From: Aggregatilinea lenta
GTDB taxonomy: Bacteria; Chloroflexota; Anaerolineae; Aggregatilineales; Aggregatilineaceae
Length of the DNA stretch: 64,000 nucleotides
Direction: 5' to 3'
NCBI RefSeq assembly: GCF_003569045.1
Contig: NZ_BFCB01000003.1
Coordinates: 1,612,001 to 1,676,000 of the forward strand
Shown here: positions 2,369 through 50,097 of the stretch, in pieces
How the letters are laid out: each line of letters starts with the position of its first letter
Position numbering within the stretch: position 1 is the first letter of the stretch
Made by a program: the position numbers and the translations under genes
The notes under the pieces: model-generated
What the model was told of the DNA's origin: nothing
Database searches by the model: none
Seen by the model: the letters and a program-made list of their open reading frames with translations, nothing else

Positions 2369-2820
2369 GCGGGTTCTCCTTGATTGATGCCGCCCTGGCC
2401 GCCGCGTTCAGTCGCGGTGACCTCATCCGATTCAACGGGGTCCAGATAGACCACCGGGGCGGTAACGAGCTGTGCAATCGCCTCCGCCTGCGACACCTTG
2501 AGGAAGCCGGGACCGGTGTGGCGCAGGGCGACCTTGAGCGTGCCGAGGCCCGGCGCGTCCGGGTCGTAGCGATAATCGGCGTCGACCGTGCCGTGGAAGC
2601 ACTCGATGCCCTGGCGGGCCGCGCGCGAGCGCGGGCGAATCTCGTGCTGCACGTTCGAGGGGCAGTCCGCGATGGCGATGCCGGTGTCAACCAACACCCA
2701 CCGTCCTGCAGGCAGTTCCATCGCGTGCAGCGGATAGAGATCCAGACCTGCACTGTGCGGCGTCGAGCGGGTCGGCAGTTTGGCTCCCGGAATGGCAATC
2801 TTGAATTGAATCTGCTTCAT
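2365..2820 (-). CDS. dut: dUTP diphosphatase (dUTPase)
   Basis: This enzyme hydrolyses dUTP to dUMP and pyrophosphate, keeping uracil out of DNA and supplying dUMP for dTTP synthesis. All five trimeric dUTPase motifs can be followed in the 151 residues: AGLDLYP (motif 1), RSRAA (2), GTVDADYR (3, with the catalytic Asp), EAIAQLV (4) and a degenerate glycine-rich ERGGQGG near the C-terminus (5). Motif 5 lacks the usual Phe, so the C-terminal arm is divergent. The ATG overlaps the TerL stop by four bases, placing it in the packaging operon. Confidence 0.9.
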   Translation of the reverse strand: MKQIQFKIAIPGAKLPTRSTPHSAGLDLYPLHAMELPAGRWVLVDTGIAIADCPSNVQHEIRPRSRAARQGIECFHGTVDADYRYDPDAPGLGTLKVALRHTGPGFLKVSQAEAIAQLVTAPVVYLDPVESDEVTATERGGQGGINQGEPA

Positions 2821-4325
2821 GCGGATCTCCTATAGCGCCCTTTCTGAGGGTGACGCGTGCCCTGCTGGTAGCGCAGGGGGCGCGAGCGTGGCTGATGCTG
2901 GATGCCCTCGTCCTTGCCGTCGACGTGACGGATCAGGAAGGCGATCATCGCCAGGGTCATGACCAGGTCGTTGTCCAGGTCCTTGTCGTTGCGGGTATAG
3001 CGTGCGAGCTGGAGGTGCAGGCCCTTGATGAAGGGGAAAGCGAGATCCTGGTTGGTCAGCAAGAGGGAGAGGGCGTTGAGCATGCCGCTCTTGTCGCGGT
3101 TGAAGTTGATGCGCGAGACCTCGATGCCGTTGGCCTCAAACGCCAGCTCGTCCATCGCGGCCTGGGTGCCCGTCGCGTCCAGGCCGCGCAGCGACGGGTA
3201 GTACTTGTCCAGCGCGTAGCGGTAACTGTCCAGGAAGGGCATGTAGGAGCCGCGCCCGCTGACCCAGTGCAGGTAGGCCAGCGAATACGGGCGATACGTG
3301 ACGTCCAGGACCATCACCGCGCCGGCGTTGCGGTTCGGGACGTCGCCCATACCGGGGTCGCCCGCCTCCACATAGATATGGCCGGGGATGTAGGGTCGCT
3401 CCCAGAGCGTGACGCCATGCCGTGGGTGCACGTCTTCGCGCCAGCCCGGCAGCGGGTCGCCCTTTTCCGGGCGAATGGCGAGCTCCATCGCGTCGTTCAG
3501 CAGGCGGTCTTCAGCCGTTGCGATATGACGCGCGGGGAACATGGTGTTGCCGTAATCGGGGAACTCGCCCATCAGCTCGACGCGGATCATCTCGTCCGAG
3601 TAGCCCGCCTTCATCAGACGAATCTGCTCGTCCGTGATGTGCGTGTTGTCGTAAATCGTCGAGCGGATGGCGGCGTAGTCGGCAAGCTGCATGTCCAGCG
3701 AGCCGGGCGTGCCGCGCGCGAACCAGTCGCGCAGCCAGGGGCAGTCGGTCGGCGAGGTCGTCGCGTCGAGGCGGGCCATACGCGGGATTCCGGGCAGGCG
3801 CTCGCCACGCAGACGGCCGCGCAGGGCGTTCATGGTCTCGATGTCATACTCGTACCCGGCCTCGTCGAACACCACGCGGTCGAACTCGAGACCGCGGATG
3901 TGAGTCGCCTGCTGCCCCGCCGTACGGAACAGCCAGCTCGATCCGTTTTTGAAGCGGATGAGCGGGTACGGGCGTTTGACGATGTCAGCAATCAGGTGGT
4001 CGATGCGCGGGCGGTACTGCTCCGAAGTGATCCACGAATAGGCCATCTCGAAGGGGATTTCAGCCTGCGCACTGGTGATCGAGGTGGATAGCGCCTTGAA
4101 CCCCGGGAGCGTGAGACAGTCAGACATGACTGACGCGGCGATCCCCCAGGATTTACCGGACGCGATAGACCCGACCCACGTGACGTTTGGCTGGCGCGCC
4201 TGGTGATAGGCGTACTGCTTCGCCAGCGGTTCGGCGCCGAAGTACCATTTCGTCAGATGCGGGTAGAGTTTGTTTTCCCGGAGCCCGGCGACCAGAAAAT
4301 AACGGTCGGCCTCGGTGAGGATCAT
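2817..4325 (-). CDS. terL: Terminase large subunit (TerL), ATPase and nuclease
   Basis: The motor that cuts and pumps phage DNA into proheads. In 502 residues, Walker A is GSIASGKS (about 52-59), Walker B with the catalytic Glu is VVFDEAG (about 151-157), and a coupling motif LDATTSP follows. The C-terminal RNase H-like nuclease shows acidic residues in EAGDPG (about D323), LDATG (about D383) and DNDLV (about D453). ATG at 4325 is preferred over GTG at 4328 because GGGAG then sits six bases upstream. A terminator at 4341-4363 separates it from the ParR-like gene. No adjacent small subunit is recognised. Confidence 0.9.
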   Translation of the reverse strand: MILTEADRYFLVAGLRENKLYPHLTKWYFGAEPLAKQYAYHQARQPNVTWVGSIASGKSWGIAASVMSDCLTLPGFKALSTSITSAQAEIPFEMAYSWITSEQYRPRIDHLIADIVKRPYPLIRFKNGSSWLFRTAGQQATHIRGLEFDRVVFDEAGYEYDIETMNALRGRLRGERLPGIPRMARLDATTSPTDCPWLRDWFARGTPGSLDMQLADYAAIRSTIYDNTHITDEQIRLMKAGYSDEMIRVELMGEFPDYGNTMFPARHIATAEDRLLNDAMELAIRPEKGDPLPGWREDVHPRHGVTLWERPYIPGHIYVEAGDPGMGDVPNRNAGAVMVLDVTYRPYSLAYLHWVSGRGSYMPFLDSYRYALDKYYPSLRGLDATGTQAAMDELAFEANGIEVSRINFNRDKSGMLNALSLLLTNQDLAFPFIKGLHLQLARYTRNDKDLDNDLVMTLAMIAFLIRHVDGKDEGIQHQPRSRPLRYQQGTRHPQKGRYRRSA

Positions 4326-4340
4326 CACGGGCTCCCAAAT

Positions 4341-4822: not shown

Positions 4823-5827
4823 CTATTCTCCGATGCCGCGCATCAGGCCGAAGCGATAGGCGCCGACCACGTTCGCCATGTGGGACTTAATGCCATACGC
4901 GCTGTCGATGGAGAACGCATGCTTCCAGGGTAGCCAGGTGCCGACGTGCTCGGCCCCACCGCCCGTAATCAGAATGAGCTCGGCCTCATTACCCCCATCC
5001 CATTCGCTGTTAACCTTGCCGACGATGCGCTGCGCCAACGTGGAAGCGGCGTCGTCGATGACCGATCCGAGGCTCACGCGCTCCGGCCCGTGCATGAAGT
5101 AGCCCTCATACAGGGCCTTGTCGAGGTCCAGGGGGCTCAGCGTGCGGCCGTAGGCGCTCTGGATGTAATCGTCCAGGACCTGCCACAGCGAGGACATCCC
5201 GGCCTTGTCGATGCCCCAACACATGTTGGGGATCAGTTCCAGGTTGTCGAAGAACAGGCCGTCGGTCGTGCGACCGCCAATGTCAATCACCGCGACTCGC
5301 TTGTCCAGCAGGTCACCAGAGACGACTTGACCGGCCTTGTTAAGCAGCATGTAGCAGATGCTGCCGAAGCCTTCGGGGATCAGGTGCAGATCCTCCGCAT
5401 CGAGCTTGAAGCGGTAGGTCTGGCCCTCGAACGTGATCTCGTAGAAGCCGGCCAGGCGCTTACGGACTTCATCCCGCGCGTTCATATAGAAGCGCACCGG
5501 GAGCGAGGCTACGACGCCGAGGTCGGTCGAGCGGTGCAGCACGCTGACCATCGCGCCGGCGAAGAGCTGGCGGTAAGACTCGCCCTCGACGCGGTAGCGT
5601 CCCATCTGGGAAACGTCCATCCGGCCCAGCTTGAAAGCGGTGTGACCCAGCGCCAGGCGGGAGCCTTCGTATTCGATGACCAGATCGCCGTTGGTATCGG
5701 TCAAACCGTCGAAGTCCAGCGCCCCACTCTCCATCGCCACGAAGGACGGGAAAGCGATTTCCGCACGTGAGGAGACGGCCTTGGTGTTGACGTTACCGAT
5801 GTCCACTGAAAGCAGGCGTTTGCCCAT
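4823..5827 (-). CDS. parM: ParM-like actin ATPase (plasmid segregation)
   Basis: A 334-residue actin/Hsp70-fold ATPase expected to polymerise and push sister replicons apart. The phosphate-1 loop is SVDIGNVNTK near the N-terminus, phosphate-2 is VAVIDIGGRTTDG and the adenosine motif is LILITGGGAEHVG. A GGAGG ribosome-binding site precedes the ATG at 5827. Upstream lie 10-bp spaced repeats that resemble a parC centromere, and downstream a ParR-like gene. Its presence argues that the phage-like element is, or was, maintained as a low-copy plasmid. A tubulin-like or filament-forming phage role is possible, but the motifs are actin-type. Confidence 0.85.
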   Translation of the reverse strand: MGKRLLSVDIGNVNTKAVSSRAEIAFPSFVAMESGALDFDGLTDTNGDLVIEYEGSRLALGHTAFKLGRMDVSQMGRYRVEGESYRQLFAGAMVSVLHRSTDLGVVASLPVRFYMNARDEVRKRLAGFYEITFEGQTYRFKLDAEDLHLIPEGFGSICYMLLNKAGQVVSGDLLDKRVAVIDIGGRTTDGLFFDNLELIPNMCWGIDKAGMSSLWQVLDDYIQSAYGRTLSPLDLDKALYEGYFMHGPERVSLGSVIDDAASTLAQRIVGKVNSEWDGGNEAELILITGGGAEHVGTWLPWKHAFSIDSAYGIKSHMANVVGAYRFGLMRGIGE

Positions 5828-7094: not shown

Positions 7095-7123
7095 ATTATA
7101 GCACATATGTTCTACTAAGTCAA
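7095..7123 (-). promoter_or_regulatory. sigma70-type promoter with SOS-like operator
   Basis: On the minus strand TTGACT (7123-7118), a 17-bp spacer and TATAAT (7100-7095). The spacer contains GAACATATGTGC, one mismatch from GAAC-N4-GTTC, the Bacillus/Actinobacteria LexA box. It drives the minus-strand genes from 6998 leftwards. Confidence 0.7.
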
Positions 7124-7263
7124 GGCTGAACATTGATGTTTGCGGAAAATGTTGCCGAGGGAGGAAGCCTGTCGCGGTGGGTATGGCGTGGCCCGGAGCA
7201 GGAGAAAACTCGGTGCTCAGGGCAGATCATCGTGTTGAGGGTTGGTGTCGGGAGAGGCGAGAA

Positions 7264-7865: not shown

Positions 7866-8507
7866 GATTGCCTCTACCCCTGAAGTTGCCGTCTCACAAA
7901 ACTGATTATAACTCGTTCTGGCCGGTGACGGGCAAGCCGGACTGCTGCGCTCCGCGGGGATCATGCGGTCAGCAGGGCAGGGCTTTCGAGACTGCTCACA
8001 GATGTTCCCGCTGTGCGGAAGCACGCCATGGTGCGACGTCGTGGGGAAACAAGGGTTACCCTGGGCGTGTGAGTCCTAACGTTACCCTCCTAATAAGGTC
8101 TAAAGTGAACTACCCACCCCCGTCTTCAACCTTGAGCGGCGCGTTGGTCCGGCAGGTTTTCACAACTGCGACATGCCCCCCTGGGGGGGGTGTCTGCCGG
8201 CTGGGGCAGCGAAAAGCATGGTCGCGTGCCGCGACGCTTCAGTGTCTACCGCTCGCTAGCGCCGGTCCCCCCACACGCGCCAAAAGCGCGCGCGTGCGGG
8301 TGCCCACCGGCACGTCGCTCGCTGCGTTCCCCGCCTGCAAAAGGGTCCCCTGTGCCTGGCCTGCCACCGCTTGTGAACCCATGGCATGCGTTTCCTGCAC
8401 AGGAAATAACGCGTAGGGGGTGACTGCGCACGGCAAGGACAAGCCCTTTGGCCTTCGGCTCCGACGGTTAAGCACTTATTCGCTTTTACCTAACCCGGAG
8501 GCTCAAC
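7866..8507. other. Gene-poor intergenic region
   Basis: No convincing gene on either strand. It holds a -10-like element for the toxin-antitoxin operon, a G/C-tract hairpin near 8175 and a palindrome at 8391-8406. A likely ribosome-binding site (CGGAGG) for the next gene lies at its right end. Confidence 0.6.
8391..8406. repeat. Dispersed palindrome
   Basis: TTTCCTGCACAGGAAA, intergenic, about 100 bases before the 230-aa gene. Confidence 0.85.
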
Positions 8508-9200
8508 ATGTTTACAGTCAATCGTCAGTTCACCGTCACCGTCAACGACATGGCTCGTACGGCCGTCGCTGTGCAGATCAGTGACGAGCAGACCCTGGAC
8601 CAGGTCACGGCAGCCGTCAGCGACAAGGGCTGGGACGCCATCACGTCGCTGGTATGGCTCAAGGACGAGGCGCATGTATATCTGCGCAACGTCGTGGGCA
8701 AGACCATCACCACAGCCGAGCGTGTGCTCAAGGCCGTGCCCTCTGCATGGCTGCCCTGTGAGGGCGAGCTGGTAGTGGTGTACCCGCCGGCCAGCAAGAC
8801 GGGTCGCAAGCAGCAGCCCAAGACCCAGCCTGTACGTAAGGCCGAGCCTGTGCGCAAGGCCGAGCCGGCAGCGCGCCCGGTCATCATCAGCGTGTCTGTG
8901 CAGGGGGCCGACTGGCTGGTGTCCTACACAGTGCCCAAGCCTGACGGCACGACCGACGGCGCAGTGAAGTCCGGCAAGGTCGAGGGCTACAAGCCTGGGC
9001 AGGCGACGGTGCTGGGTGCACTGAAGGCCGCGCTCCAGGTGTGGCAGCCGAAAGCGACCTACCAGACGAGCATCACGCGCATCAGCGACACCAACGTCGG
9101 CCGGATGCTGCGCGGTGAGATGCAGTCGCGTGCCAACTCTGAGCTGCTCGCCGAAGTCAAGGACCTGTGCGCAAAGCATCAGGCCACGCTCAACCTGTAG
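8508..9200 (+). CDS. Hypothetical protein, 230 aa, two-domain
   Basis: The first domain (1-105) is alpha/beta, with FTVTVNDMARTAVAVQI and WLKDEAHVYLRNVVG. A linker with the repeated motif VRKAEP (about residues 110-125) joins it to a second alpha/beta domain (VIISVSVQGADWLVSYTV, then helices to the end). CGGAGG precedes the ATG and a strong terminator follows, so it is a single-gene transcript unit. Function unknown; the second domain is not confidently RNase H-like. Confidence 0.75.
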   Translation: MFTVNRQFTVTVNDMARTAVAVQISDEQTLDQVTAAVSDKGWDAITSLVWLKDEAHVYLRNVVGKTITTAERVLKAVPSAWLPCEGELVVVYPPASKTGRKQQPKTQPVRKAEPVRKAEPAARPVIISVSVQGADWLVSYTVPKPDGTTDGAVKSGKVEGYKPGQATVLGALKAALQVWQPKATYQTSITRISDTNVGRMLRGEMQSRANSELLAEVKDLCAKHQATLNL

Positions 9201-14987: not shown

Positions 14988-16844
14988 ATGACCGTACAGA
15001 TTCGACCGACACTCACTCTCAAGCAGGCCAAGCAGGACCTGACGATCATGCGCAGCTTCGGCTTGCGCGCCACCGATGAAACCGCCGCCGACGCCTTCCA
15101 GCACGCCCATCGCGAAGACTGGACCGAGCGCAACTTCCGCCGTAACGCCGCCCGCTTTGAGCAGAATCTGCCGAGCGCGAACCACCGCACGGCCGAGACA
15201 CTGCTGCGCCTCAAGCAGGTCGGCAGCACGCTGACCCGCTGGTTCACCCTGAGTGCCGAGGCTCAGGCCCACACGCTGCCCGACGTGCAGTTCGCGGCCC
15301 GCTTCGGTCACGACAAGCTGCGTTTTCCTGCGCAGGAAATCCTCAACCAGTGGTATCTATCCGGGCCGAACCAGTCGAAGGGCTGGGAGCGCTGGGAACA
15401 GGTGCCGGGCTACGAGGAGACCTGCGGCTACACGCTGGAACCGGACGATCCAGACTGTTTCATCGTCGAAGCTGGCAGCTACCTTCGCCTGACCGACGAA
15501 GAGACCGGCGAGGTCGACACCATCGGCTACGACTTCCTGCGCTCGATGTTCGACTGGGCCAACGATGACCTCACGACCGACCTGGAGGGCCCGTACACGC
15601 AGCCTGCGACTGAACGGGTCTATCGGGCGGGCAAGCTGATCGAGACGCGCGTTCTCGAGGCGCCTGAGGCCAACGCGCAGTGGCGTCAGGCCAACGACCG
15701 CATCAGCTACGCCGACGAGGACGAGGTAGGGCAGGAGGATCGCGGCTACGAGCCGCCCGGCTTCGGCAACCCCATCCCGATCCACTGGGACGCGGTGCAG
15801 ATGTTCCGCTCGCGCCATGAGGACGCGCTCACGCACCTGGTCGACGTCTACGTCCAGTTCACAGCGTTCAATCTGACAGACGACCTGCGGCTTGACATGG
15901 TGGCCCGCCTGGCGCCGCAGGAACGCTTCGCCCTGGCGCGCACGCTGGCCGGCGACATCCGGGCAAACATGTCGACCAAGTACGCGCGCTACCTGCGCAT
16001 CCTCAACAACCGCCTGACGCTGATGCGCCCGCACCTCCAGTACCGTGAGACGCGCATCCGCTACGCACGGCACAAGGCCCTGCGCGACAAGATCAGCGCG
16101 CGCTGGGCGCACGTGCGCGACTACGACGGCAACGTCGAGCGGCTGGTCGAGTTGTTCGGCATCGAGGCGTTTTTCGACGAGTGGGAGGACGAGCTGCTGG
16201 CCGCGACGTCCGGCGATCATCACTTCGTCACCAGCGAGCGCGACATCGAAGAGATGGCGGAGCGCGTGCTGGAGGAGTACATGCACGCGCCCGTGGCGCG
16301 TATCCCCGAAGCGCAGCTCCAGCAGATGTGGAGCGACCCGCAGACTCGGTCACAATTTCCTAGCCCGGAAAAAGTGAGGACCGAGAAGCGGGTCGGCTCA
16401 GTGTCGTTTTGGCTATACGACGACACGGATTATATCACACTCGCGCGTTTGCTCAAGCTCCAGGGCCTGGACCTGGGCGGGGCAGTGCACAGCCTGACGC
16501 CCTTCAAGAACCGCGCGGTCATGGACCACGTGCTGAACGGCGAGAATATCGTGCCCGCCTACAAGGCCGCGCACGCCGAGTACATGGCCGAGCGCGCCCT
16601 CCGTCACCCGAAGCAGGCCGCGCCGCAGACCACGTCGCGCAAGGTCGCACATCTGCTCGACTTCACGGACGGCATGTTCATCCTCGATGTGCCCGGTCGC
16701 CCGGCAAAAGCCCCGGCGGAAGCCGTCGAGAAGATGGGCATCTGCCTGACGGATGAGCACCTCGCCATCCTGACCAAGGCGCTCGCCGAACGGCCGGACA
16801 GCGCGCCCATCCGCCGCATCTGGCAGCGTATCACCAACGGGTAG
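14988..16844 (+). CDS. Large hypothetical protein, 618 aa
   Basis: The largest uncharacterised gene of the element. The first 60 residues (RPTLTLKQAKQDLTIMRS) are helical; residues 110-250 are acidic and aromatic-rich. A helical core (DVYVQFTAFNLTDDLRLD, RYLRILNNRLTLMRPHL) leads to the C-terminal half with LDFTDGMFILDVPGRP. No nucleotide-binding loop, nuclease motif or membrane segment is seen. Its own leader carries a GAGCC hairpin and GAGGAGATT before the ATG. Two palindromes lie in frame (15324-15339, 16356-16371), read FPAQE and FPSPEK. Confidence 0.8.
   Translation: MTVQIRPTLTLKQAKQDLTIMRSFGLRATDETAADAFQHAHREDWTERNFRRNAARFEQNLPSANHRTAETLLRLKQVGSTLTRWFTLSAEAQAHTLPDVQFAARFGHDKLRFPAQEILNQWYLSGPNQSKGWERWEQVPGYEETCGYTLEPDDPDCFIVEAGSYLRLTDEETGEVDTIGYDFLRSMFDWANDDLTTDLEGPYTQPATERVYRAGKLIETRVLEAPEANAQWRQANDRISYADEDEVGQEDRGYEPPGFGNPIPIHWDAVQMFRSRHEDALTHLVDVYVQFTAFNLTDDLRLDMVARLAPQERFALARTLAGDIRANMSTKYARYLRILNNRLTLMRPHLQYRETRIRYARHKALRDKISARWAHVRDYDGNVERLVELFGIEAFFDEWEDELLAATSGDHHFVTSERDIEEMAERVLEEYMHAPVARIPEAQLQQMWSDPQTRSQFPSPEKVRTEKRVGSVSFWLYDDTDYITLARLLKLQGLDLGGAVHSLTPFKNRAVMDHVLNGENIVPAYKAAHAEYMAERALRHPKQAAPQTTSRKVAHLLDFTDGMFILDVPGRPAKAPAEAVEKMGICLTDEHLAILTKALAERPDSAPIRRIWQRITNG
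15324..15339. repeat. Dispersed palindrome
   Basis: TTTCCTGCGCAGGAAA, perfect, in frame inside the 618-aa gene (FPAQE). Confidence 0.95.
16356..16371. repeat. Dispersed palindrome, variant centre
   Basis: TTTCCTAGCCCGGAAA, in frame inside the 618-aa gene (FPSPEK). Confidence 0.7.
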
Positions 16845-20041: not shown

Positions 20042-20404
20042 GTGACCGACGAACTCAACAACACCAATGCAGTGCCTGCCGACGACCAGATGCCCGCGAT
20101 GGAAGACCTGTGGGCCGTCGAAGACGAAGAAGAAGAGCAAGACACGCTCTTCGAAGACGAGTTCGAGACCGAAGCTATGGGCCCGACCGTGCGCGTGATG
20201 CTCGCCGGTCGCTCGCCGATTGACGTGCCGCTGCCCGGCGAAGGCCAGAGCATGACGGTCGCGACGGCACTGGACCGCGCCAACGTCGCGATTCGTGCGG
20301 GCGAACAGACTGTTTACGTCGACGGCGTGCAGGCTGGCATGGAGACCATGGTCGGCGTCGGCCAGACCATCATGCCGGTGGGTGCCGTCAAGGGCGGCAA
20401 GTAG
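20042..20404 (+). CDS. Ubiquitin-like (beta-grasp) modifier protein
   Basis: 120 residues: an acidic disordered N-terminus (1-45), then a ThiS/MoaD/ubiquitin-like beta-grasp domain. The order is strand VRVMLAG, strand IDVPLPG, helix VATALDRANV, strand QTVYVDG and a terminal strand ending AVKGGK. The Gly-Gly near the C-terminus (118-119) is the group that E1 enzymes adenylate; one Lys follows and may need trimming. GTG start with GGAGG. It is followed by E2-, JAB- and E1-like genes, which identify it as the likely conjugated protein. A sulfur-carrier role is less likely because no cofactor enzyme is nearby. Confidence 0.78.
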   Translation: MTDELNNTNAVPADDQMPAMEDLWAVEDEEEEQDTLFEDEFETEAMGPTVRVMLAGRSPIDVPLPGEGQSMTVATALDRANVAIRAGEQTVYVDGVQAGMETMVGVGQTIMPVGAVKGGK

Positions 20405-20433
20405 CCCCCTAGAAACCACGTAGGAAACCGCAA

Positions 20434-20458
20434 GGGAGGCCGCGCCGCCTCCCTTTTT
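20434..20458 (+). terminator. Intra-operon terminator-like hairpin fused to a palindrome
   Basis: GGGAGGC-CGC-GCCTCCC followed by TTTTT; the last Ts are the first arm of a dispersed palindrome. Could set an excess of Ubl over the enzymes by partial termination. Confidence 0.65.
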
Positions 20459-20471
20459 CCTGCACAGGAAA
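20456..20471. repeat. Dispersed palindrome
   Basis: TTTCCTGCACAGGAAA between Ubl and E2; its AGGA is the E2 ribosome-binding site. Confidence 0.9.
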
Positions 20472-20478
20472 AATCATC

Positions 20479-21258
20479 ATGGATAACTTGACCGGCAACG
20501 TCCTGGGGGGACTTGGGGCGTTCAAACCCAAGAAGGTCGTCCAGAAGCCTGCGGTGCAGGTGGACGTGGACGGCATCATCAAGATTGTGAAGCCTTATGT
20601 GCGCGATATGGTGGCCCGGGCGGACCGCGACATCGAAAGCACGAGCCGCGATGTCGAGTACGTGACGGGCGAACGCGCGCGTGTCGCTGCTCTTGAGCGT
20701 CTTCAGATCGCCAAGGCCCACAAGGCCGCGCTGAAGCAGCGCTGGGGCGCCGGCATCGACGCCTATCTCACCGGGTTGTTCTCGCTTAAGGACTACACCC
20801 ACATCTGGGCCGAAGAGCATCCCAAAGTACCGTTCCGCATCCCGGGCGTGCCGTACATCATCGGCCAGACGACCGAGGTCGAGTTCGAGATCGGGCCTTT
20901 CGACCGCGTCTCCAACGACCCGGTGGGCCAGGTTCGTCGCTACGACCCCGTTCCCGGACGCCGGGTTTCCGCCGGCCAGTATCGCATCATGATTCCGCTG
21001 GGCGGCGCCGTCGGCGACGTACACTGGGTGCCCATGCGGCAGCCCGATACGCTGTCTCGTCATCCGCATCATCACCTTGGAGGAGGAGTCCCACGCACAT
21101 GTTGGGGTACGTTCGCTGGTTACGTGACATCACTCGTGGCGAACGGCGAGTTCGTTCCGATGATTCGCCTGTGCGGGCAGTTCTGCCACGTGTACAACCC
21201 GGGCAGCCCGCTGATCCATCTGTCGAGCATCCCGTTCCTACGGCTCATCAACGAGTAA
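20479..21258 (+). CDS. E2-like ubiquitin-conjugating enzyme
   Basis: 259 residues. Residues 30-100 are helical with many charged residues. The E2-like fold follows: strands TEVEFEIGPFDR and QYRIMIPLGG, then RHPHHHLGGG (194-203) and TCWG with the candidate catalytic Cys208. This mirrors the HPN...C active-site layout of E2 enzymes, and an HPH...CWG signature is seen in bacterial E2-like families. The C-terminus has further cysteines (LCGQFCHVY) and a helix. It would take the Ubl from the E1 thioester. The N-terminal helices may bind substrate. The start follows the palindrome-borne AGGA. Confidence 0.78.
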   Translation: MDNLTGNVLGGLGAFKPKKVVQKPAVQVDVDGIIKIVKPYVRDMVARADRDIESTSRDVEYVTGERARVAALERLQIAKAHKAALKQRWGAGIDAYLTGLFSLKDYTHIWAEEHPKVPFRIPGVPYIIGQTTEVEFEIGPFDRVSNDPVGQVRRYDPVPGRRVSAGQYRIMIPLGGAVGDVHWVPMRQPDTLSRHPHHHLGGGVPRTCWGTFAGYVTSLVANGEFVPMIRLCGQFCHVYNPGSPLIHLSSIPFLRLINE

Positions 21259-21263
21259 GCCCG

Positions 21264-22286
21264 GTGACCACGACCTGGACTGATCCCAACGCCATGCGTA
21301 TCGACCTCTCGTCGACCGCCTATCGCAAGATGATGGCGGCCGTGGCGAGCACGCAGCTCGAGGTGTCAGGCTACGGGCGGGTGGCGGTCTACCACGAGGA
21401 GCGCGACCTGCGCGAGCCGCTCACCATGCGGCGCCTGAAGGCCATGCCCAAAGAGGGACCGTATGGGTTTGTGTTCCGTATCGAGGACGTGTGGCTGCTG
21501 GACATCGGGTCTGGCGCCGAGACGACCATCCAACCGCCGGTCGCCGCCAGGTGGCTGGCCGAGCGCGTCGCCGCTGGTGACAACCCTGAGCAGCTCAAGC
21601 TGTGGTGGCACCGCCACCCACTGACAGGCGGCTGGTCGGGGACCGATGAGCGCGCCATTCGCAAAACACCGATGGGGAACACAGGTGACCCGGAGGGGAT
21701 AGGCTGGATGGTCAGCATCGTCTGGTGCACCGCGACCAGTTGGAACGGCCGCTTCGACCAGCTCGCCAAGCCCGGACTCACCATCCACTGCCCAGTGACG
21801 ATTGAGTCCCAGCCTCAATTCGAGCCGACCATCCAGGCTGAGCTTAGCACGCTTTACGCCCAACACAAGCCGCGGCACATCATCACAGCGGTCAAGCCCC
21901 TCTTCGACGTGCAGCAGGCCGCGGAAGACGCGGCCATGATGCGGGAAGTCGCCGAAGAAATGGCGCTGCTCGATCACACGCTGGACCGGGCCCTGATGGC
22001 CCACGATTACGACCTGGCCGCTCAGATGATGACCGAGCAGTTTTGGGAAGCGCTAGCCGATATGGACTGGGGCGACATCGACGCTTACCAGCTCTGTCAG
22101 GAGCTGACCAGCGACCTCGGCGTGATCGTCTCCGGGTACGGCTTCGACGCCGAACGCATCCGCCGCCTTTTCGAGCGCACCTCATCCCGCTACGACATCG
22201 ACGTCGACGTCTTCTTCGACATCGCCTACGTGCTGTGGGGCCGCTTCGAACCTGCCAACCAACTACCGCTCTTCCGAGGAAGCTGA
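21264..22286 (+). CDS. JAB/JAMM metallopeptidase (deubiquitinase-like)
   Basis: The zinc site is complete: E33 in LEVSGYG, H116 and H118 in WWHRHPL, S125 and D128 in WSGTDE, the JAMM ExnHxHx10D signature. This peptidase domain fills residues 10-200. A C-terminal helical domain of about 140 residues (MREVAEEMALLDHTLD, WEALADMDWGDIDAYQL) is extra. It should trim the Ubl C-terminus or remove Ubl from targets. GTG at 21264, five bases after the E2 stop, is the likely start; ATG 21294 is the alternative. The gene is seven bases from the E1 gene. Confidence 0.88.
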   Translation: MTTTWTDPNAMRIDLSSTAYRKMMAAVASTQLEVSGYGRVAVYHEERDLREPLTMRRLKAMPKEGPYGFVFRIEDVWLLDIGSGAETTIQPPVAARWLAERVAAGDNPEQLKLWWHRHPLTGGWSGTDERAIRKTPMGNTGDPEGIGWMVSIVWCTATSWNGRFDQLAKPGLTIHCPVTIESQPQFEPTIQAELSTLYAQHKPRHIITAVKPLFDVQQAAEDAAMMREVAEEMALLDHTLDRALMAHDYDLAAQMMTEQFWEALADMDWGDIDAYQLCQELTSDLGVIVSGYGFDAERIRRLFERTSSRYDIDVDVFFDIAYVLWGRFEPANQLPLFRGS

Positions 22287-22292
22287 CATCAC

Positions 22293-23030
22293 ATGAACAT
22301 CGGCGCAGACCAAATCAATCTGCGCAGCCTCGCTCTCTGTTCGCCTGAACAACTCAACTCGAAGTTCTCTACTACCGACGTGATTGGCTGCGGCGGGATC
22401 GGGTCGAGTGTTGTCATGGCGCTGTCAAAGATGGGGCTGCAAAACATCTGGGTGTTCGACGACGATACGCTCGAACCCCACAACCTGGGCAACCAGTTCC
22501 TGCCCTACCGCGAGTACTGCGAAGGCAACGAATACATTTTCCTGGGCAGGAATAAAGTCGACGCGATGGAGGGCCTGCTGGTCAACCTGCTGCCCGACAT
22601 CGACACGCTGCACTTCGAGCCGGAGCGGTTCACCGACCAGACCCCTGGTAGTCCGCTGGTCATCGTCACGGTCGACTCGATGGCCGCGCGTAAGGCCATC
22701 TGGAAGCACGTGTTCGACAACGGCGTCAACACCCGCTACTTCATCGACGCCCGCATGGGCGCCCAGACGCTGCGCGTGTTCACCGTCGACCTGCTGGACG
22801 GACCGAACATCGACCACTACGAGGACTCGCTGTACGACGACGACGTGGCCGTCGAGGAGCCCTGCACCGCACGCGGCATCGTCTATACCTCGATGTTCGC
22901 CGGGGCGCACGTGGCGAACATCGTGAAAATGCTGGCAACCGGCCCGCAGGACGCGCCCTGGGAGCTGAACCACCTGATCGAGCACAACGCGGTGGTGACC
23001 TCGCCCCAGCGCGTGCAGCGCAATGGGTAA
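22293..23030 (+). CDS. E1-like (ThiF-fold) Ubl-activating enzyme
   Basis: 245 residues of ThiF/MoeB/E1 adenylation domain. The ATP-binding loop is IGCGGIGSSVVMALSKMG (31-48), then WVFDDDTLEPHNLGNQF with the Asp and Asn/Arg-type residues, IVTVDSM and FIDARMG (150-156). C191 in EEPCTARG is the candidate thioester cysteine. The C-terminal zinc CxxC pairs of MoeB are absent, a simplified form. Expected to adenylate the Ubl C-terminus and pass it to the E2-like protein. Its stop overlaps the primase start by eight bases, so it is co-transcribed with replication genes. A palindrome is in frame at 22538 (FLGRN). Confidence 0.88.
   Translation: MNIGADQINLRSLALCSPEQLNSKFSTTDVIGCGGIGSSVVMALSKMGLQNIWVFDDDTLEPHNLGNQFLPYREYCEGNEYIFLGRNKVDAMEGLLVNLLPDIDTLHFEPERFTDQTPGSPLVIVTVDSMAARKAIWKHVFDNGVNTRYFIDARMGAQTLRVFTVDLLDGPNIDHYEDSLYDDDVAVEEPCTARGIVYTSMFAGAHVANIVKMLATGPQDAPWELNHLIEHNAVVTSPQRVQRNG
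22538..22553. repeat. Dispersed palindrome, variant
   Basis: TTTCCTGGGCAGGAAT inside the E1-like gene. Confidence 0.65.
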
Positions 23031-24114
23031 TCTGGACCTGGAGCTCCTGCGGGGGCTCTATGACCTCAACACCATCGCCTCACAGGCCATCGGCAAGTCC
23101 ATACGGAACGGGTCAGCGTACCTCTGCCCGTTCCCGCACCACGCGCACCATCACAACACGCCGAGTTTCTCGGTCTACCCGCGGCGCGACGGCCGGCTGT
23201 ACTTCAAGTGTAAGGGCGCCTGCGGGGCGTACGGCGACGTCGTCGACTTCATGGGCTTCATGACGCTCGGCGCCGGCTACGACGCGCACAATCCTGAGCA
23301 CGTCTATACCGCCGCGCGGGCCCTGGGCCAGCGTGACCTGTGCCCGCCCAGGCCGATGCTGAAGTCGGAACGGCGCGCCCTCAACCCGGTCTACGCCCGG
23401 CTGCGCGCCGAGGAGTGGGCTGAGGCGCTGGCGACCTGCTCGCCGGCCCAAGACTATCTGGAACAGCGTGGTGTGCTCTCCGTAGCCCGGCGCTTTCTGC
23501 TGGGCTACCGCTATTTGCCGCCGGAAAACGCCAAGCGGACGCGGCGCGGACAGACCTACCCGCCGCTCCCGGGACACTACATCAGTCTCCCGCACCGCCG
23601 CGACGGGACCGTGCACGGCATCAAGCTGCGCCGCATCGACAGCCATCCAGATTATGTGGGTATGCCCGAAGAGGCCCTGCCGCTGCGTTATGATGCGCTG
23701 AGCGGGGGCCGGGCGATCTTCTTCAACTTCGACCAGATCGCCTTCCAATCTGGAGCGCTGTTCATCCCCGAAGGCGAGTTCGACATGCTGCTGATGGTGG
23801 CCCTGGGCTATATGGCCGGTGGTGACACGGCCGGGGCGAGCTCGATGGAGAGCTTCGACGAGACGTTACGCCTCGCGACCACCTACGCCACGCCGATCTT
23901 CGTCGAGGACCCGGATGAAGCCGGGAGGAAAGCCGCCCAGCGGCGCCTCAAGTGGTTCGGACGGGGCACCATCGCCAACGCTCGTGACCGCCACGACGTC
24001 GGCGATCTGTATGCACACGGCGGCCCGGACGCGGTGCGGACCTGGGCCGAGGAGACGATCCATGCAAGTCTGGGACATCAAGGAACGACGCTACGAGAAC
24101 GGGTCTTTGCTTAG
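23023..24114 (+). CDS. DnaG-type primase (CHC2 zinc finger + TOPRIM)
   Basis: 363 residues. The zinc finger has C35PFPHH and C63KGAC67; a primase core follows and the TOPRIM metal site is IPEGEFD (248-254) with EDPDEAGR (295-302). It synthesises RNA primers for the lagging strand. Shorter than cellular DnaG (about 600), without a recognisable C-terminal helicase-binding domain; the helicase is encoded separately at 26742. ATG at 23023 overlaps E1. The next small gene starts inside its 3' end. Confidence 0.88.
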   Translation: MGNLDLELLRGLYDLNTIASQAIGKSIRNGSAYLCPFPHHAHHHNTPSFSVYPRRDGRLYFKCKGACGAYGDVVDFMGFMTLGAGYDAHNPEHVYTAARALGQRDLCPPRPMLKSERRALNPVYARLRAEEWAEALATCSPAQDYLEQRGVLSVARRFLLGYRYLPPENAKRTRRGQTYPPLPGHYISLPHRRDGTVHGIKLRRIDSHPDYVGMPEEALPLRYDALSGGRAIFFNFDQIAFQSGALFIPEGEFDMLLMVALGYMAGGDTAGASSMESFDETLRLATTYATPIFVEDPDEAGRKAAQRRLKWFGRGTIANARDRHDVGDLYAHGGPDAVRTWAEETIHASLGHQGTTLRERVFA

Positions 24115-25663: not shown

Positions 25664-26749
25664 ATGCCGCGCAGACCCCAGAACACCGCTCTGGCCGTCC
25701 CGGAGCTGAACGAAGAAGAGGTCCAGATTCAGGAATGGATCGCGGGCCTGGACATCCGCAACCCGCGCGCCCGTGAGCTGGCGGAGCTCGCGGCTAACCC
25801 GACCGTACCGACCCTCGGCGGGGCCATCGCGGGCTTGGAGGCCGGCATTCGCCGCCAGGCGGCGATTGACGTGCTGGAAGCCGTCGCGTCCGGCACCATG
25901 ACGCAGACGCAGATCAAGGCCGTGTACTACGGCGCGATGCTCAACCGCTCGCGTGTTATCAACTTCGCGGGCTTCGAGATCATGTACAGCCTGCTGCGCA
26001 CCATCCGCGACGAGCGCCTGGCCCAGCAGCACCCGAACGACTACACCACCGTGAATGGCAACGAAGACCGCTCCTTCCTGCGCATGGCGGAAGAAGAAGC
26101 GGGCGTGTCCAACTCGGTGGCCTCCGACCTGATGATCCTGGGCGACATCATCCTGCCCTACGTCGAGGAGGAGCTGGGAGTTGCACGCGCCGAAATCTGG
26201 GAGCGCATCTCCACCACCAATCTGCGTGCCATGACGCCCATCCTGCGCCTGCTGATCAACCGCGTGCGTGAGACCGACGACACGCGCCGCCCGCAGGACC
26301 GCATCACGCGCCGCATGCAGAACGTCGAGGAGCGCTGGGCCGCCGACGAGCTGAACGTCGAGGTCGATCCCGACAACACGCGTCTGCAAGACATGACCCA
26401 GGCCGAGCGCCAGACCTACCTCGGCACGATCAATGCCAACCGCACGCGGGTCGTCGACTGGCTGGAACAGCAGCCGACCGAGACTGTCGTGCGCGGCACG
26501 GTGGGCTGGCTGCTGGACGCGGGTGAGAACACCACCACGGCCGGCTTCACGCGCCTGATCGGCACGGCCGAGGACAACGCGGTCGAGCCGGTGGTCTACG
26601 AAGACCAGGACGGCGTCGTGACGATGGTGTCCACTATGACGCGCGATCAGTACGACAACATGAAGCGTGTCATGCGCACCCGCATGTCGCCGCGCGAGGT
26701 CCGCAACTGGGCCGAGCTGCTGCGCACGCTGGAGGGTCGCGATGCCTAG
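25664..26749 (+). CDS. Hypothetical protein, 361 aa, replication operon
   Basis: Predicted mainly helical (ARELAELAANPTVPTLGGAI, QIKAVYYGAMLNRSRVINF), with a C-terminal region RTRMSPREVRNWAELLRTL. No P-loop or catalytic motif is seen. Its position directly before DnaB and overlap with it (ATGCCTAG) fit a helicase loader or replication initiator, which is inference only. Confidence 0.7.
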   Translation: MPRRPQNTALAVPELNEEEVQIQEWIAGLDIRNPRARELAELAANPTVPTLGGAIAGLEAGIRRQAAIDVLEAVASGTMTQTQIKAVYYGAMLNRSRVINFAGFEIMYSLLRTIRDERLAQQHPNDYTTVNGNEDRSFLRMAEEEAGVSNSVASDLMILGDIILPYVEEELGVARAEIWERISTTNLRAMTPILRLLINRVRETDDTRRPQDRITRRMQNVEERWAADELNVEVDPDNTRLQDMTQAERQTYLGTINANRTRVVDWLEQQPTETVVRGTVGWLLDAGENTTTAGFTRLIGTAEDNAVEPVVYEDQDGVVTMVSTMTRDQYDNMKRVMRTRMSPREVRNWAELLRTLEGRDA

Positions 26750-28163
26750 TCTCCCCGCTGATCCGTATGCTGAGATGCAGCTCATTGGCGCCATCCTTCG
26801 CGACCCGCACCACAGCATGCTTCAGATCGCCGGCGAGGGGCTTATCACCCAGCAAGACATCCACATGGCCGAGCATGACCTGATCATGCAATCCATCTTC
26901 GCCCTGAACGCCGACGGACGCACCATCTCGGTCGATTCAGTGGCGTCCTGGCTGAACGGACGCGGCAACCTGGAGGCGGCGGGTGGCTATAACTACGTCG
27001 CCTCTCTGGTCGAGCACGCCGGCGACCTCGAGGAAGCCGCGGACCTGGTGATGCAGGCGGCAGTGCGCCGCCAGCTCCTGTTCTTCGGTGCTGGCGTCAC
27101 GGCCAAGGCCGCCGACGAAGCGCGGCCCGTCGACGACGTGATCGACGAGCTGGAGCAGGGCCTGATCGAGCTGCGGCGTCGCCGCCGGCAGCGAGTTGTT
27201 CCGATTGGGGCTATCGCCCAGTTGTTCCGGGAGCGTATCAATCGGCAGCGCGCGGGCACGTGGGGCGCGCCACGTCGCGTCGGCGTGCGGCAGATTGACG
27301 ACATCCTGGGCCCGATGGAGGACAACGAGTTCCTCATCGTCGGGGGGCGACCGGGGGATGGCAAGTCCACGTTCCTCAAGTGGGCGGCTTACCAGACGGC
27401 GATTGCGCCCGCGCCTGAAGACCGGCGCGGGGTCTACATCGCCGACTTCGAGGAAGGCGAGGCCGTGGTGACGATGCACTTCGTCGCCATGATCTCAGGC
27501 ATCTCGACGACGCTGCTGAAAAACGCCACCCAGCTCAGCGAGGAGCAGCTCCAGGCCGTCATGGACGCCCTGGACATCCTCAGCGGCGCGCCGCTGTTCG
27601 TCGACTCGATTGCCGGCTGTACGCCTGCGATCTATAAGTCAAAAGTACTGGATGCGATCCAACAGTGCGACAGCGAGTTCGGTGTCCCGCTCGCCTGGCA
27701 CGGGGCCGATTACATCCAGCTCATGGTGGGGCAGGGCGAGTCAAGCGTCGCCACCAACACCTTCATCTCGCATCAAATGCGAGCGCTGTGCCAACCAGAC
27801 AAGCTGGGTCTGCCAGCGTTATGCTCCGCGCAGCTCTCGCGCGCACCGGTCGGATCGAACGGGGCGCCGCGTGAGTACGTCATCTCCGATCTGCGTGAGA
27901 CGGGCGCGCTGGAGCAAGACGCGTCGATCATCGTGTTCCCCGTTCGTCCCTGGCTGCTCAGCCCGCCGGCTGACGAAACCGTGCGCCGGCTGGAGGAGAA
28001 CGTCGAGGCCGGGGGACGCACATCACGCCAGTGGCTCGCCGAGCCAATCCAGTGGAAGGTCGCCAAGAACCGCAACGGCGGCACGGGTAAGACGGACCTG
28101 CTCGTCTGGCATCGCGATACGGGACGCTACGAGGAGGACGAGAGAGTCCATGACATGGCCTAA
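26742..28163 (+). CDS. dnaB: Replicative DNA helicase, DnaB family
   Basis: 473 residues. DnaB N-terminal helical domain (DPYAEMQLIGAILRDPHHSM, AGGYNYVASL), linker helix, then a RecA-like ATPase with Walker A GRPGDGKST (202-210), Walker B-type HGADYIQLM and the DnaB H4 signature SDLRETGALEQDASIIVF with AQLSR upstream. It unwinds duplex DNA at the fork as a hexamer. ATG 26742 overlaps the previous gene by eight bases. Confidence 0.93.
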   Translation: MPSLPADPYAEMQLIGAILRDPHHSMLQIAGEGLITQQDIHMAEHDLIMQSIFALNADGRTISVDSVASWLNGRGNLEAAGGYNYVASLVEHAGDLEEAADLVMQAAVRRQLLFFGAGVTAKAADEARPVDDVIDELEQGLIELRRRRRQRVVPIGAIAQLFRERINRQRAGTWGAPRRVGVRQIDDILGPMEDNEFLIVGGRPGDGKSTFLKWAAYQTAIAPAPEDRRGVYIADFEEGEAVVTMHFVAMISGISTTLLKNATQLSEEQLQAVMDALDILSGAPLFVDSIAGCTPAIYKSKVLDAIQQCDSEFGVPLAWHGADYIQLMVGQGESSVATNTFISHQMRALCQPDKLGLPALCSAQLSRAPVGSNGAPREYVISDLRETGALEQDASIIVFPVRPWLLSPPADETVRRLEENVEAGGRTSRQWLAEPIQWKVAKNRNGGTGKTDLLVWHRDTGRYEEDERVHDMA

Positions 28164-29326: not shown

Positions 29327-29612
29327 CACCTCCGACACGATCACCCTGGACTTCGTTGACACCGAGGGCGCTTGCGCCCACCAGGACCTGCAACCTGTTT
29401 GCGATTTTGAGCAGCAAATCAACCTGCTCAATGATGAGCGCCGCCACTTATGGGACCTTCGGAACGAAGCCATTAAGGAGGCTTACCCGAATCCTGTCGA
29501 GCCCAACCGCAAGCTCAACCAGCGACTGCGCGTCATTGAGCGCGAGCTGAAGCGGCTTGAGGACGGACGGCGGCGCGCATTCGCCCACCAGAATCGGAGG
29601 AACGCTCGATGA
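29313..29612 (+). CDS. Hypothetical coiled-coil protein, 99 aa
   Basis: Acidic N-terminus, then heptad-like EQQINLLNDERRHLWDLRNE and a basic C-terminal helix (KLNQRLRVIERELKRLED). Overlaps both the Cas4-like and the ATPase gene, so probably a partner of one of them. Confidence 0.65.
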   Translation: MHSLNTSDTITLDFVDTEGACAHQDLQPVCDFEQQINLLNDERRHLWDLRNEAIKEAYPNPVEPNRKLNQRLRVIERELKRLEDGRRRAFAHQNRRNAR

Positions 29613-30622
29613 GCATGCTCAATCTGTTCCAACCGGCCCAGGAGAGCCAGACTCGCCTGCGGCTGGCAATCACCGGCGCGACGGGACGTGGCAAGACGCT
29701 CACCATGCTCAAAGTCCTGAGCGCGATGATGCGTTTCAAGGCCGAAGAAGAGGGCCTCGAGACCGTGCCGAAGTTCGCCGTGCTCGACACGGAAGGCTTC
29801 TCGGCGTCGAAGTACAAGTACGAGGAAGGCGTGGGGCCGTTCGACGTGCTGCCCATGCCGTTTACCGGCGCGAAGTACGCGGGTCACCACCCGCTGAATT
29901 ACGTGCACGTCATCGAGATGGCCGGGCAGCACTACGCCGCGCTCGGCATCGACTCGCTGTCGCACGAGTGGTTCGGCAAGGACGGGTCACTCCAGCTCGT
30001 GGACAAGTACACGCTGGCGTCGAAGTCCAAGAACAGCTACACCGAAGGCTGGGGCAAGGTGACACCCTGGCACACGACTCTGATCGAGACGCTGCTCGGC
30101 TCGCCGCTGCACATCTGCGCGACCATGCGCAGCAAGCAGGACTACGTCCTGGAGAACAACAAGCCGCGTAAGGTTGGCCTGGGGCCCATCCAGCGCGATG
30201 GCACCGACTACGAGTTCGACATCGTGGCCGACATGCGCGAGGTGGCCGTGGCCGCCATCGACAAGACTCGCTGCTCGCGCTTGCGCGATGGCGTGTTCCA
30301 AGAGCCGGGCGAGGACCTGGCGCGTATCCTGTGGGACTGGATCACGTCGGGCGAAGCCGACCACGGCCTCGAGGAAGCGCAGGCCAGGATCGCAGCCAAA
30401 ATCGCCGAGGCTCGCGCCAAGGCGCCCGCCTCACCGGCGACCACGCCCGAGAGCCACGACGATCATACCTACGGCGCGCTGCTGACCGAGCTGGTCACCA
30501 CCCGCAAGGCGTTCCGCTCCAAGCCGGAAGTCGACAAGTGGCTGGCCGAGACGTTCGGCGGCGAGTTCGATGCGGCCCAGTGGGACGAGTACATGGCTGC
30601 GTCAGCCAACGGGGTCCATTAA
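29609..30622 (+). CDS. RecA-like ATPase, phage Sak4 type
   Basis: 337 residues; Walker A GATGRGKT (23-30), Walker B-type ALGIDSLSHEW, then CATMRSKQDYV and VGLGPIQRDGTDYEFD, the signature of phage single-domain AAA/RecA proteins (Sak4 group) that help SSB-coated strand annealing. The C-terminal 80 residues are a separate small domain (LLTELVTTRKAFRSKPEVDK). Neighbouring Cas4-like nuclease and SSB make a recombination set. Confidence 0.82.
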   Translation: MSMLNLFQPAQESQTRLRLAITGATGRGKTLTMLKVLSAMMRFKAEEEGLETVPKFAVLDTEGFSASKYKYEEGVGPFDVLPMPFTGAKYAGHHPLNYVHVIEMAGQHYAALGIDSLSHEWFGKDGSLQLVDKYTLASKSKNSYTEGWGKVTPWHTTLIETLLGSPLHICATMRSKQDYVLENNKPRKVGLGPIQRDGTDYEFDIVADMREVAVAAIDKTRCSRLRDGVFQEPGEDLARILWDWITSGEADHGLEEAQARIAAKIAEARAKAPASPATTPESHDDHTYGALLTELVTTRKAFRSKPEVDKWLAETFGGEFDAAQWDEYMAASANGVH

Positions 30623-48490: not shown

Positions 48491-48655
48491 ATGGCACATG
48501 ATCGTAACCATGACGTGAGCGCGATACAAAGAACACCCAACGGGACGGAACAAGCAGCAATCGAGGACTTATGCGGCCTTCTGTCTCGTGTCCTGATTCG
48601 GTTGACCGCTGCACCGGCTGAGCAGAGGACTTCACAAGGAGCACCGAAGGCATGA
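48491..48655 (+). CDS. Short protein coupled to the recombinase, 54 aa
   Basis: ATG at 48491 after GAGGAGCACCT; the frame MAHDRNHDVSAIQRTPNGT continues to a TGA that overlaps the recombinase ATG (ATGA). Helical centre (AAIEDLCGLLSRVLIRLT). Translational coupling suggests a recombinase partner, possibly a directionality factor; inference only. Confidence 0.6.
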   Translation: MAHDRNHDVSAIQRTPNGTEQAAIEDLCGLLSRVLIRLTAAPAEQRTSQGAPKA

Positions 48656-50097
48656 CCAAACGCGCTGCCGCCTATGTGCGGGTATCAAGTGAGGAACAGA
48701 CTGAAGGCTGGAGTCTGGATGGGCAGGAACGCGCGATCCGTGACTACGCGGATCGGAACAACTACGACATCGTGAGTGTGTACCACGACGATGTGACAGG
48801 AAGCAAAGAAGAGCGGCCTGGCTTCGAGCAGATGATCATGGACGCGCACGACAAGCAGTTTGAAGGCATCATCGTCTTCCACACCTCTCGGTTATTCCGC
48901 AATGTGGCCCTTGCGCGCCGCTACAAGGATCTGCTCCGCAATAAGCTCAGCATCGATCTCGTCTTCATCAACCAGCCGGTCGTATCACCTGACGATCCTA
49001 CCGCCTTCATGATGGAGGGCATCAACGAGCTGTTCGACGAGTACTACCTGCACCAATTGCGGTTCTGGACCTCACTGGGTAAGCAAACCCGCGCCCAGCA
49101 AGGCATGTGGAATGGCACGCTGCCGTTCGGGTACATGACCGACCCGGAGACAGGATTGCCGGCGCCACATCCCCAGAATGCCCAGGGGCTTGTGATGGCG
49201 TTCGCGGCGTATGCGACCGGGCGGTACACGGACGGGCAGGTTGCGGAGCTTCTAAATCGCGAAGGCTATCGCACGACCGGGAACTGGGGTGAGAGGTCCT
49301 TCACGAAGGACACGGTCAACCGGATGCTGCGCAACGTGTTCTACCTGGGGCTGGTGAAGTACAAAGGCCAGACGTTCCCCGGTCAGCATCCGCCACTGAT
49401 CGAGCAAGAGTTGTTCGACACGTGCCAGGAGGTGCGGGCAACCCGAAGTCGGCATCCCCGGTCGTTTGGGCAGAAGAAGCGGGACTATGTGCTGGCGGGC
49501 ATTGCGCGCTGTGTTGAATGCAATCTGACGCTCCGGTGTGGCTCATGGGGAGAAAACGGCGGTCGATACTATCGTCACACCGCCCAAGAGCGTGGCTACG
49601 ACTGCTCAGTGCCTGGTAAATACCTTCGAGCCGAAATACTCGAAGATCAGTGGTCGGAGATCATCGCTGCGATTGAGCTTCCAGACGACTGGAAACAGCG
49701 CATCGAGGAACTGGCCGGCAATGTAGAGCGGCGCGCGGCGATTCTCCGCGAACGCGAGCAGGTGGAAGAAAAGCTCCGGCGGCTTCGGCGCATGTACCAG
49801 GATTTGGTGATCGGCGATGCGGAGTATCAGGAGACGCAGAAGCAATTGCAGTCGCGGCTGGCGGCATTAGTGGTTCCCGCCGAATCGCAACTCGTGCGGG
49901 GCGGGGAGTACCTGGAGAACCTGGGCCTGCTCTGGTCAGCGGCGACGCTGGCCGAGCAGCGCGACATCACACGCGTGCTCATCAAGGCGGTATACGTCGA
50001 TGTCGCGGATGCGCAGATTGTCGCCCTGGAGCCGGTTCCGGCTTTCCGAATCCTGTTTGAGGCGTTCTGCCAGGATCTTGGTGTGGCGATCCTCTAG
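48652..50097 (+). CDS. Large serine recombinase (integrase)
   Basis: 481 residues. The resolvase catalytic domain shows AAAYVRVSSEEQ with Arg10 and nucleophile Ser12, and HTSRLFRN (R80, R83). A recombinase domain (RTTGNWGERSFTKDTVNRML) and a zinc ribbon (ARCVECNLTLRCG...CSVPGKY) follow, then a coiled coil and a conserved tail ending VPAFRILFEAFCQDLG. Such enzymes integrate phages between attP and attB. Three decayed copies of its 3' end recur downstream among the defence-type genes. Confidence 0.93.
   Translation: MTKRAAAYVRVSSEEQTEGWSLDGQERAIRDYADRNNYDIVSVYHDDVTGSKEERPGFEQMIMDAHDKQFEGIIVFHTSRLFRNVALARRYKDLLRNKLSIDLVFINQPVVSPDDPTAFMMEGINELFDEYYLHQLRFWTSLGKQTRAQQGMWNGTLPFGYMTDPETGLPAPHPQNAQGLVMAFAAYATGRYTDGQVAELLNREGYRTTGNWGERSFTKDTVNRMLRNVFYLGLVKYKGQTFPGQHPPLIEQELFDTCQEVRATRSRHPRSFGQKKRDYVLAGIARCVECNLTLRCGSWGENGGRYYRHTAQERGYDCSVPGKYLRAEILEDQWSEIIAAIELPDDWKQRIEELAGNVERRAAILREREQVEEKLRRLRRMYQDLVIGDAEYQETQKQLQSRLAALVVPAESQLVRGGEYLENLGLLWSAATLAEQRDITRVLIKAVYVDVADAQIVALEPVPAFRILFEAFCQDLGVAIL

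Follow-up and report, generated by a model that had tools for sequence, protein, structure and literature searches.

A prophage of Aggregatilinea lenta (Chloroflexota) carries a four-gene cassette of the kind known from bacterial operons for ubiquitin-like protein conjugation. The cassette lies within the 64,000-nucleotide stretch of contig NZ_BFCB01000003.1 analysed here (positions 1,612,001 to 1,676,000; hereafter the window, whose first letter is position 1), and specifies, in this order, a ubiquitin-like modifier (Ubl), a protein resembling ubiquitin-conjugating enzymes (E2), a JAB/JAMM metalloprotease, and an adenylating enzyme of the E1/ThiF type. It is real, intact and co-directional, and runs directly into the gene of a DnaG-type primase. 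On balance, we favor the view that the cassette is a phage-encoded, self-contained and reversible Ubl conjugation system serving the DNA replication programme of the phage.

Organization of the cassette

All four open reading frames (ORFs) are on the forward strand: the Ubl gene at 20042..20404 (120 aa, a predicted beta-grasp modifier precursor), the E2-like gene at 20479..21258, the JAB gene at 21294..22286 (or from an alternative GTG start at 21264), and the E1 gene at 22293..23030. The gaps between them are 74 nt, 35 nt (5 nt with the GTG start) and 6 nt, and the 3' end of the E1 gene overlaps the start of the primase gene (23023..24114, forward strand; TIGR01391, 1.7e-11; PF01807, 5.8e-6) by 8 nt. 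The same co-directional run includes, also on the forward strand, a DnaB-type replicative helicase (26742..28163; TIGR00665, 3.1e-49) and an AAA_24 (Sak4-like) ATPase (29609..30622; PF13479, 1e-11), a family found downstream of the cassette in two other phage loci, L037 and L091, as well. The nearest recognised structural gene is more than 15 kb away and on the opposite strand.

An earlier note, made from the DNA letters alone, had described these four genes with their order and coordinates, together with a GGK terminus in the Ubl, HPH...TCWG in the E2-like protein, H-x-H-x(9)-D in the JAB protein and GxGGxG in the E1, and all of this is found as described; its proposal of a Ubl/E2-like/JAB/E1 set with Bil-like logic holds too, down to the gene order. 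The ORFs are not chance occurrences, because the E1 matches PF00899, the JAB profile matches RPN11, and the motifs are kept in relatives that are only about 20-40% identical. The note had also assigned the cassette to the replication transcript of the element, which agrees with its orientation along the primase and DnaB genes, but a terminator-like hairpin splits the Ubl gene from the E2-like gene (see below).

The JAB and E1 enzymes

The JAB protein contains the motif HRHPLTGGWSGTD, that is, H-x-H-x(9)-D, plus Glu23; the spacing is one residue under the common JAMM pattern HxHx7SxxD. The presumptive ligand residues E23, H106, H108, S115 and D118 are invariant among relatives, and the protein has an extra C-terminal region. 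Single-sequence searches with it gave no informative match. A profile of six homologues (A7) matched RPN11 (2.7e-9), CSN5 (3.6e-7), BRCC36 and archaeal JAMM1, so that the identification from sequence profiles is secure. A scan of viral contigs with the JAB alignment recovered nothing, and the JAB protein of L037 had no match in phages.

Equally secure at the profile level is the identity of the E1, a single adenylation domain of 245 aa (PF00899, 1.1e-16). Its profile (A10, seven homologues) matched UBA5 (3.8e-18), ThiF, MoeB, UBA1 and BubCD, with values ranging to 3.5e-10. The GCGGIG loop, D56/D58, K88, D128, R133 and C191 (in PCTAR) are all present, and the nucleotide-pocket residues and C191 are invariant or almost so among relatives. 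In the phylogenetic tree, where most deeper branches are poorly supported, seven plasmid-borne ThiF proteins of PRTRC systems form a 100/100 clade of their own, separate from the phage E1s. As in the Ubl-conjugation operons defined by Iyer 2006, the E1-like protein is free of a rhodanese domain and adjoins the JAB gene, 6 nt away.

The modifier and the hairpin that follows it

The Ubl ends in AVKGGK, i.e., a GG pair followed by one Lys, which gives it the C-terminal glycine of types 6a-6e in the same survey. Residues 1-48 form an acidic N-terminus predicted with low confidence, and residues 49-119 form the single Ubl domain. The case for a beta-grasp fold, put forward in the earlier note, is strong, resting on homology and modelling together. 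A chromosomal homologue from locus L084 matches ThiS (PRK08364, 1.5e-8) and SAMP2 (5e-4), and aligns with residues 49-119 with the GG terminus in register (E 0.01). The Ubl family profile (A6) retrieved PF1061, SAMP2 and RnfH as its top, weak matches in PDB (E 0.03-0.3). The AlphaFold2 model, built from a shallow alignment, has pLDDT of 59 overall and 76-79 in the best blocks; its Foldseek matches are mainly NEDD8, ISG15, ubiquitin, SAMP1, ThiS, Raf-RBD and other beta-grasp domains, with probabilities up to 1.0 and no match under E 0.001. Homologues end either in exact KGG (L060, L084) or in GG with one to three additional residues (GGK in the window, GGIA in L090, GGYTR in L091), and the latter termini would be expected of precursors trimmed by a JAB peptidase.

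Between the Ubl and E2-like genes, at 20432..20460 on the forward strand, there is a hairpin with a U-tract that resembles a terminator or attenuator (minimum free energy -26.8, z -4.2). It surfaced in a repeat search and was not listed by the automatic regional scan. Five phages have a post-Ubl hairpin, which is terminator-like in the two closest: L060 has a long hairpin 3' of its Ubl gene (z -2.5), and L090 (z -5.6), L091 (z -4.0) and L092 (z -4.4) have hairpins at the same site with no clear U-tract. Ranked by stem length among same-strand gaps of 40-150 nt, the hairpin is the longest in three of the five loci (1 of 7, 1 of 6 and 1 of 5); in the remaining two it shares third place (of 17 and of 7). 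In L037, the Ubl and E2-like genes are a few nucleotides apart, with no hairpin. Its position suggests that the hairpin is a means of producing the modifier in excess over the enzymes.

The E2-like protein

The second gene probably encodes an E2, although this is not proven. Its motif region, RHPHHHLGGGVPRTCWG, contains the candidate catalytic Cys208 (codon 21100-21102), with HPH at residues 195-197. An iterated hidden Markov model started from five homologues was significant, among 997 ORFs of 51 loci, only for genes in the E2 position of cassettes (L090, 6e-12; L036, 1e-11; L035, 3.5e-4). The shared motif reads HPH-x(4-10)-C-[WLF]-G, with Asn/Asp 27-33 residues further on and Asp/Ser after that; it was absent from the rest of the 997-ORF set and from shuffled sets, a specificity to be read with the fact that the pattern was derived from the very cassette genes that it recovers. 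The candidate cysteine is kept across lineages. In L090, the corresponding region reads HPHIYQDGDICFGN, which we take to be the HPN...C register of classical E2s. Alignment of the family with the E2-position protein of crAss-like phages by hhalign was weak (P 0.0075), with the motif nonetheless lined up. Searches of phages and plasmids by tblastn with the window E2 gave no match, and neither did single-protein scans of viral and genome contigs with the window E1 or E2.

Relatives in other phages and in chromosomes

The closest relative is a sister phage (G037:C91, locus L060), with 52% identity in the capsid protein, 53% in the terminase and 43% in the portal protein. Homologues of only 19 of the 116 prophage genes are found in it, and those of known role are structural, replication or cassette genes; the latter groups include the E2-like protein (25% identity), JAB (31%), E1 (36%), primase (29%) and helicase (31%). 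The L060 Ubl gene is at 8258-8566 of its contig. Further cassette relatives of varying completeness occur in IMG/VR phages (L035-L037 and L088-L094), and L035 and L036 have more than one E2/JAB/E1 set each. These two phages also encode a polyUbl protein with three beta-grasp-like repeats beside an SbcC-like ATPase (L036, 5401-6066; L035, 4252-4917).

Among GenBank phages, the cassette is found in cr111_1, FpV4, Dulem virus 41, phiCrAss001 and bajarodcaudo virus 1, in a row that consists of a primase/toprim protein, a Ubl-position gene, the E2-like gene, JAB and E1, with uracil-DNA glycosylase nearby. Homologues of the crAss-type E2 were detected in 74 of 50,697 phage records, including the cultured crAss001, DAC15, DAC17 and FpV4; the profile of this protein had no E2 match in PDB. 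In phiCrAss001 (L108, NC_049977, 3714-8124), gp79-gp76 follow the order Ubl(?)-E2-JAB-E1 beside the primase gp80. Existing annotation of these genes in cultured crAss-like phages of the gut reads 'hypothetical' (including the phiCrAss001 E2), 'metalloprotease' or 'thiamine biosynthesis'. The order Ubl-E2-JAB-E1 recurs in Crassvirales, in Flavobacterium phages and in several phages from IMG/VR, in most cases close to a primase, DnaB or Sak4-like ATPase gene.

Divergent homologues are also present on contigs with no recognised phage genes (L061, L084/L085, and L101 for the E2 alone). Immediately upstream of the cassette homologues in L061 (G026:C76) lies another chromosomal set, at about 2880-8241, which consists of a ThiF-like protein, an E2 matching UQ_con (8e-4), a Ubl-size protein, a JAB-like protein and an AAA ATPase.

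The prophage and its surroundings

The element is a Chloroflexota prophage of about 76 kb, with its ends at about -26.4 and +50.2 kb in window coordinates. The earlier note had called it phage-plasmid-like, a classification that we reject: the element is a prophage because it lies inside a 2.9-Mb contig and has terminase, portal, capsid and large serine recombinase genes. It also encodes a protein of tape-measure size, dUTPase, single-stranded DNA-binding protein and a ParM-like actin. The large terminase is at 2817..4328 on the reverse strand (phrog_2, 1.2e-23; 53% identical to the sister phage), the ParM/actin-like partition protein at 4823..5827 on the same strand (phrog_691, 5.5e-39; PF17989), and the recombinase, which is the integrase, at 48652..50097 on the forward strand, at the right end of the prophage (phrog_95, 3.5e-83; PF00239; PF07508). 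No flanking att repeats above 12 nt were found. A protein of 131-147 aa encoded at 4377-4820 (reverse strand) has a close paralogue at -30.1 kb, just beyond the left boundary of the prophage, and a 618-aa ORF at 14988-16844 has no convincing match to Pfam, NCBIfam or PHROGs families.

At 50 kb, the G+C content falls from about 0.61 to 0.45, and a low-GC block adjoining the integrase occupies 50403-64000 and continues to about 66 kb. Its genes specify a STAND/AAA NTPase, a protein combining TIR, HARE-HTH and sigma70-r4 domains, a methylase resembling Eco57I (mad2-like) and one TPR protein; the block looks like a defence island at the prophage end.

Proposed function and alternatives

In the mechanism that we propose, limited read-through past the post-Ubl hairpin into the enzyme genes would leave the Ubl in excess. 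The JAB peptidase would clip the final Lys and expose GG; the E1 would adenylate this terminus and, judging from its intact residues, hold the Ubl as a thioester on C191; Cys208 of the E2-like protein would accept it and pass it to target amines with no recognisable ubiquitin ligase (E3); and the JAB peptidase might eventually take the Ubl off again. The likeliest targets, at a guess, are proteins at the sites of phage replication or host proteins that restrict them. The broader proposition, that several unrelated lineages of tailed phages, cultured Crassvirales included, carry the complete E1-E2-Ubl-JAB core near replication genes, so that tagging made by phages controls viral DNA replication, we put forward more tentatively.

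Several observations weigh against our preferred interpretation. We identified neither an E3 nor a target gene. The structure predictions for the Ubl and the E2-like protein both derive from shallow alignments, and for the latter (five divergent rows) the AlphaFold2 model is unusable, with pLDDT of 37. The E2-like protein has no informative match in Pfam, NCBIfam or PDB, and hhalign finds no link between it and PRTRC_B. The Ubl of L036 ends in KSN and not in Gly, and the Ubl-position proteins of crAss-like phages have a C-terminal extension and no ubiquitin-like match in PDB. Linkage to replication is not universal, since the contigs of L061 and L084 have no recognised phage genes.

The uncertain fold and the lack of family matches leave some room for the second gene encoding a structural or adaptor protein in a system of Ubl, E1 and JAB only. 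We think this doubtful, though well worth bearing in mind: the position of the gene, the HPH...C[WLF]G motif, the invariant Cys and the NP-type tail fit the logic of an E2 in several lineages. The resemblance to BilA-B-C-D in gene order, the match of the E1 to CBASS E1-E2 models and the defence-like genes at the right end of the prophage bring to mind an anti-phage weapon of the Bil or CBASS type, which would tag proteins of superinfecting phages and so protect the lysogen or exclude competitors. This is rather unlikely, given that the cassette sits within a run of replication genes, in crAss-like phages too, and not as accessory cargo, that it is among the few genes retained in the sister phage, and that no Bil model matches it.

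The Ubl and JAB are also parts that would be expected to interfere with Ubl systems of the host, and a host relative does have a divergent multi-component Ubl locus (L061); the phage Ubl could be conjugated to a host defence protein, or the JAB could strip Bil or CBASS conjugates. Deconjugation, however, needs no whole E1/E2/Ubl set, and no host-side target system of this kind was found near the cassette, which makes counter-defence distinctly unlikely. Least probable in our estimate, and by some way improbable, is a ThiS/MoaD-like role of the Ubl in carrying sulfur for modification of phage nucleotides or tRNA, in which the E1 would adenylate the Ubl for thiocarboxylation and the JAB would trim it. 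The ThiS match of the L084 relative and the single-domain E1, as in ThiF and MoeB, agree with such a role; in nearly all loci examined, however, the cassette comes with an E2-like gene of its own in which the Cys is invariant, and nothing recognisable as a rhodanese, cysteine desulfurase, SirA or thiouridylase gene lies nearby. We favor protein modification over sulfur carriage because no sulfurtransferase and no thiamine or molybdenum cofactor gene was recognised near the cassette.

Ubl conjugation in bacteria has so far been mainly a matter of host defence (Bil, CBASS, Bub). If the replication-linked function is correct, phages themselves may employ ubiquitin-like tagging, a reversal of that view, and phiCrAss001 gp76-gp79 and the FpV4 cassette would bring testable genes to a question that has mostly been studied on the host side. 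We found no earlier report of the phage cassette among the open-licence papers that we searched, a scope outside which fall most subscription papers and all preprints.

Comparison with known systems

Bil shares with the cassette the gene content and order (Ubl-E2-JAB-E1 as BilA-B-C-D), the single operon with no E3 gene, and a Ubl-maturing JAB peptidase, demonstrated for BilC and presumed here. In Bil, however, the modifier BilA contains two Ubl domains and BilD both an inactive and an active adenylation domain plus a Cys domain (PMC11354881), whereas the cassette has one Ubl domain (residues 49-119) and an E1 with a single adenylation domain. The E2 motifs differ as well (HPH...CWG as opposed to C-E-H-H in Bil), the cassette is located in a phage replication module, and PADLOC found no match to its Bil model. 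Type II CBASS (the Cap2/Cap3 pair) likewise combines E1, E2 and JAB activities in one operon, and the cassette E1 matches CBASS E1-E2 models. In that system, Cap2 is a fused E1-E2 and the conjugated protein is cGAS itself, with no separate Ubl (PMC10097602); in the cassette E1 and E2 are separate genes, and no CD-NTase is found among the neighbouring genes scanned.

Among the operon types of Iyer 2006, type 6d has stand-alone Ubl, E2, JAB and E1 genes, and the phage example is the tail pair TAPI/TAPK (PMC1779556). Judging from common gene content and taxa, type 6d appears to be the PRTRC cassette, which, like ours, combines a stand-alone Ubl with E2 (PRTRC_B), JAB (PRTRC_A) and ThiF, arranged in matching order. 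PRTRC membership is rejected, with the window E1 outside the PRTRC ThiF clade. This E1 scores 32 bits with the PRTRC ThiF model TIGR03736 (cut-off 144.75), the three partner genes and the nearby genes scanned, which are part of the window genes, have no NCBIfam PRTRC match, the cassette has no ParB, E or F partner next to it, and profile comparison does not connect its E2 to PRTRC_B/Prok-E2_D. The lambda proteins TAPI (Ubl) and TAPK (JAB-NlpC) show that a phage can encode a Ubl with a JAB, but they come with no E1 or E2 and belong to the tail module (PMC1779556); as an identity for the cassette, which adjoins a primase gene, they are rejected. The Crassvirales block (phiCrAss001 gp80-gp76) has the same order beside a primase gene, with JAB and E1 homologous to those of the window, and differs in its far longer E2 and JAB and in a Ubl assigned by position only. 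The cassette is a variant of the bacterial Ubl-operon kind that is located in phage replication modules.

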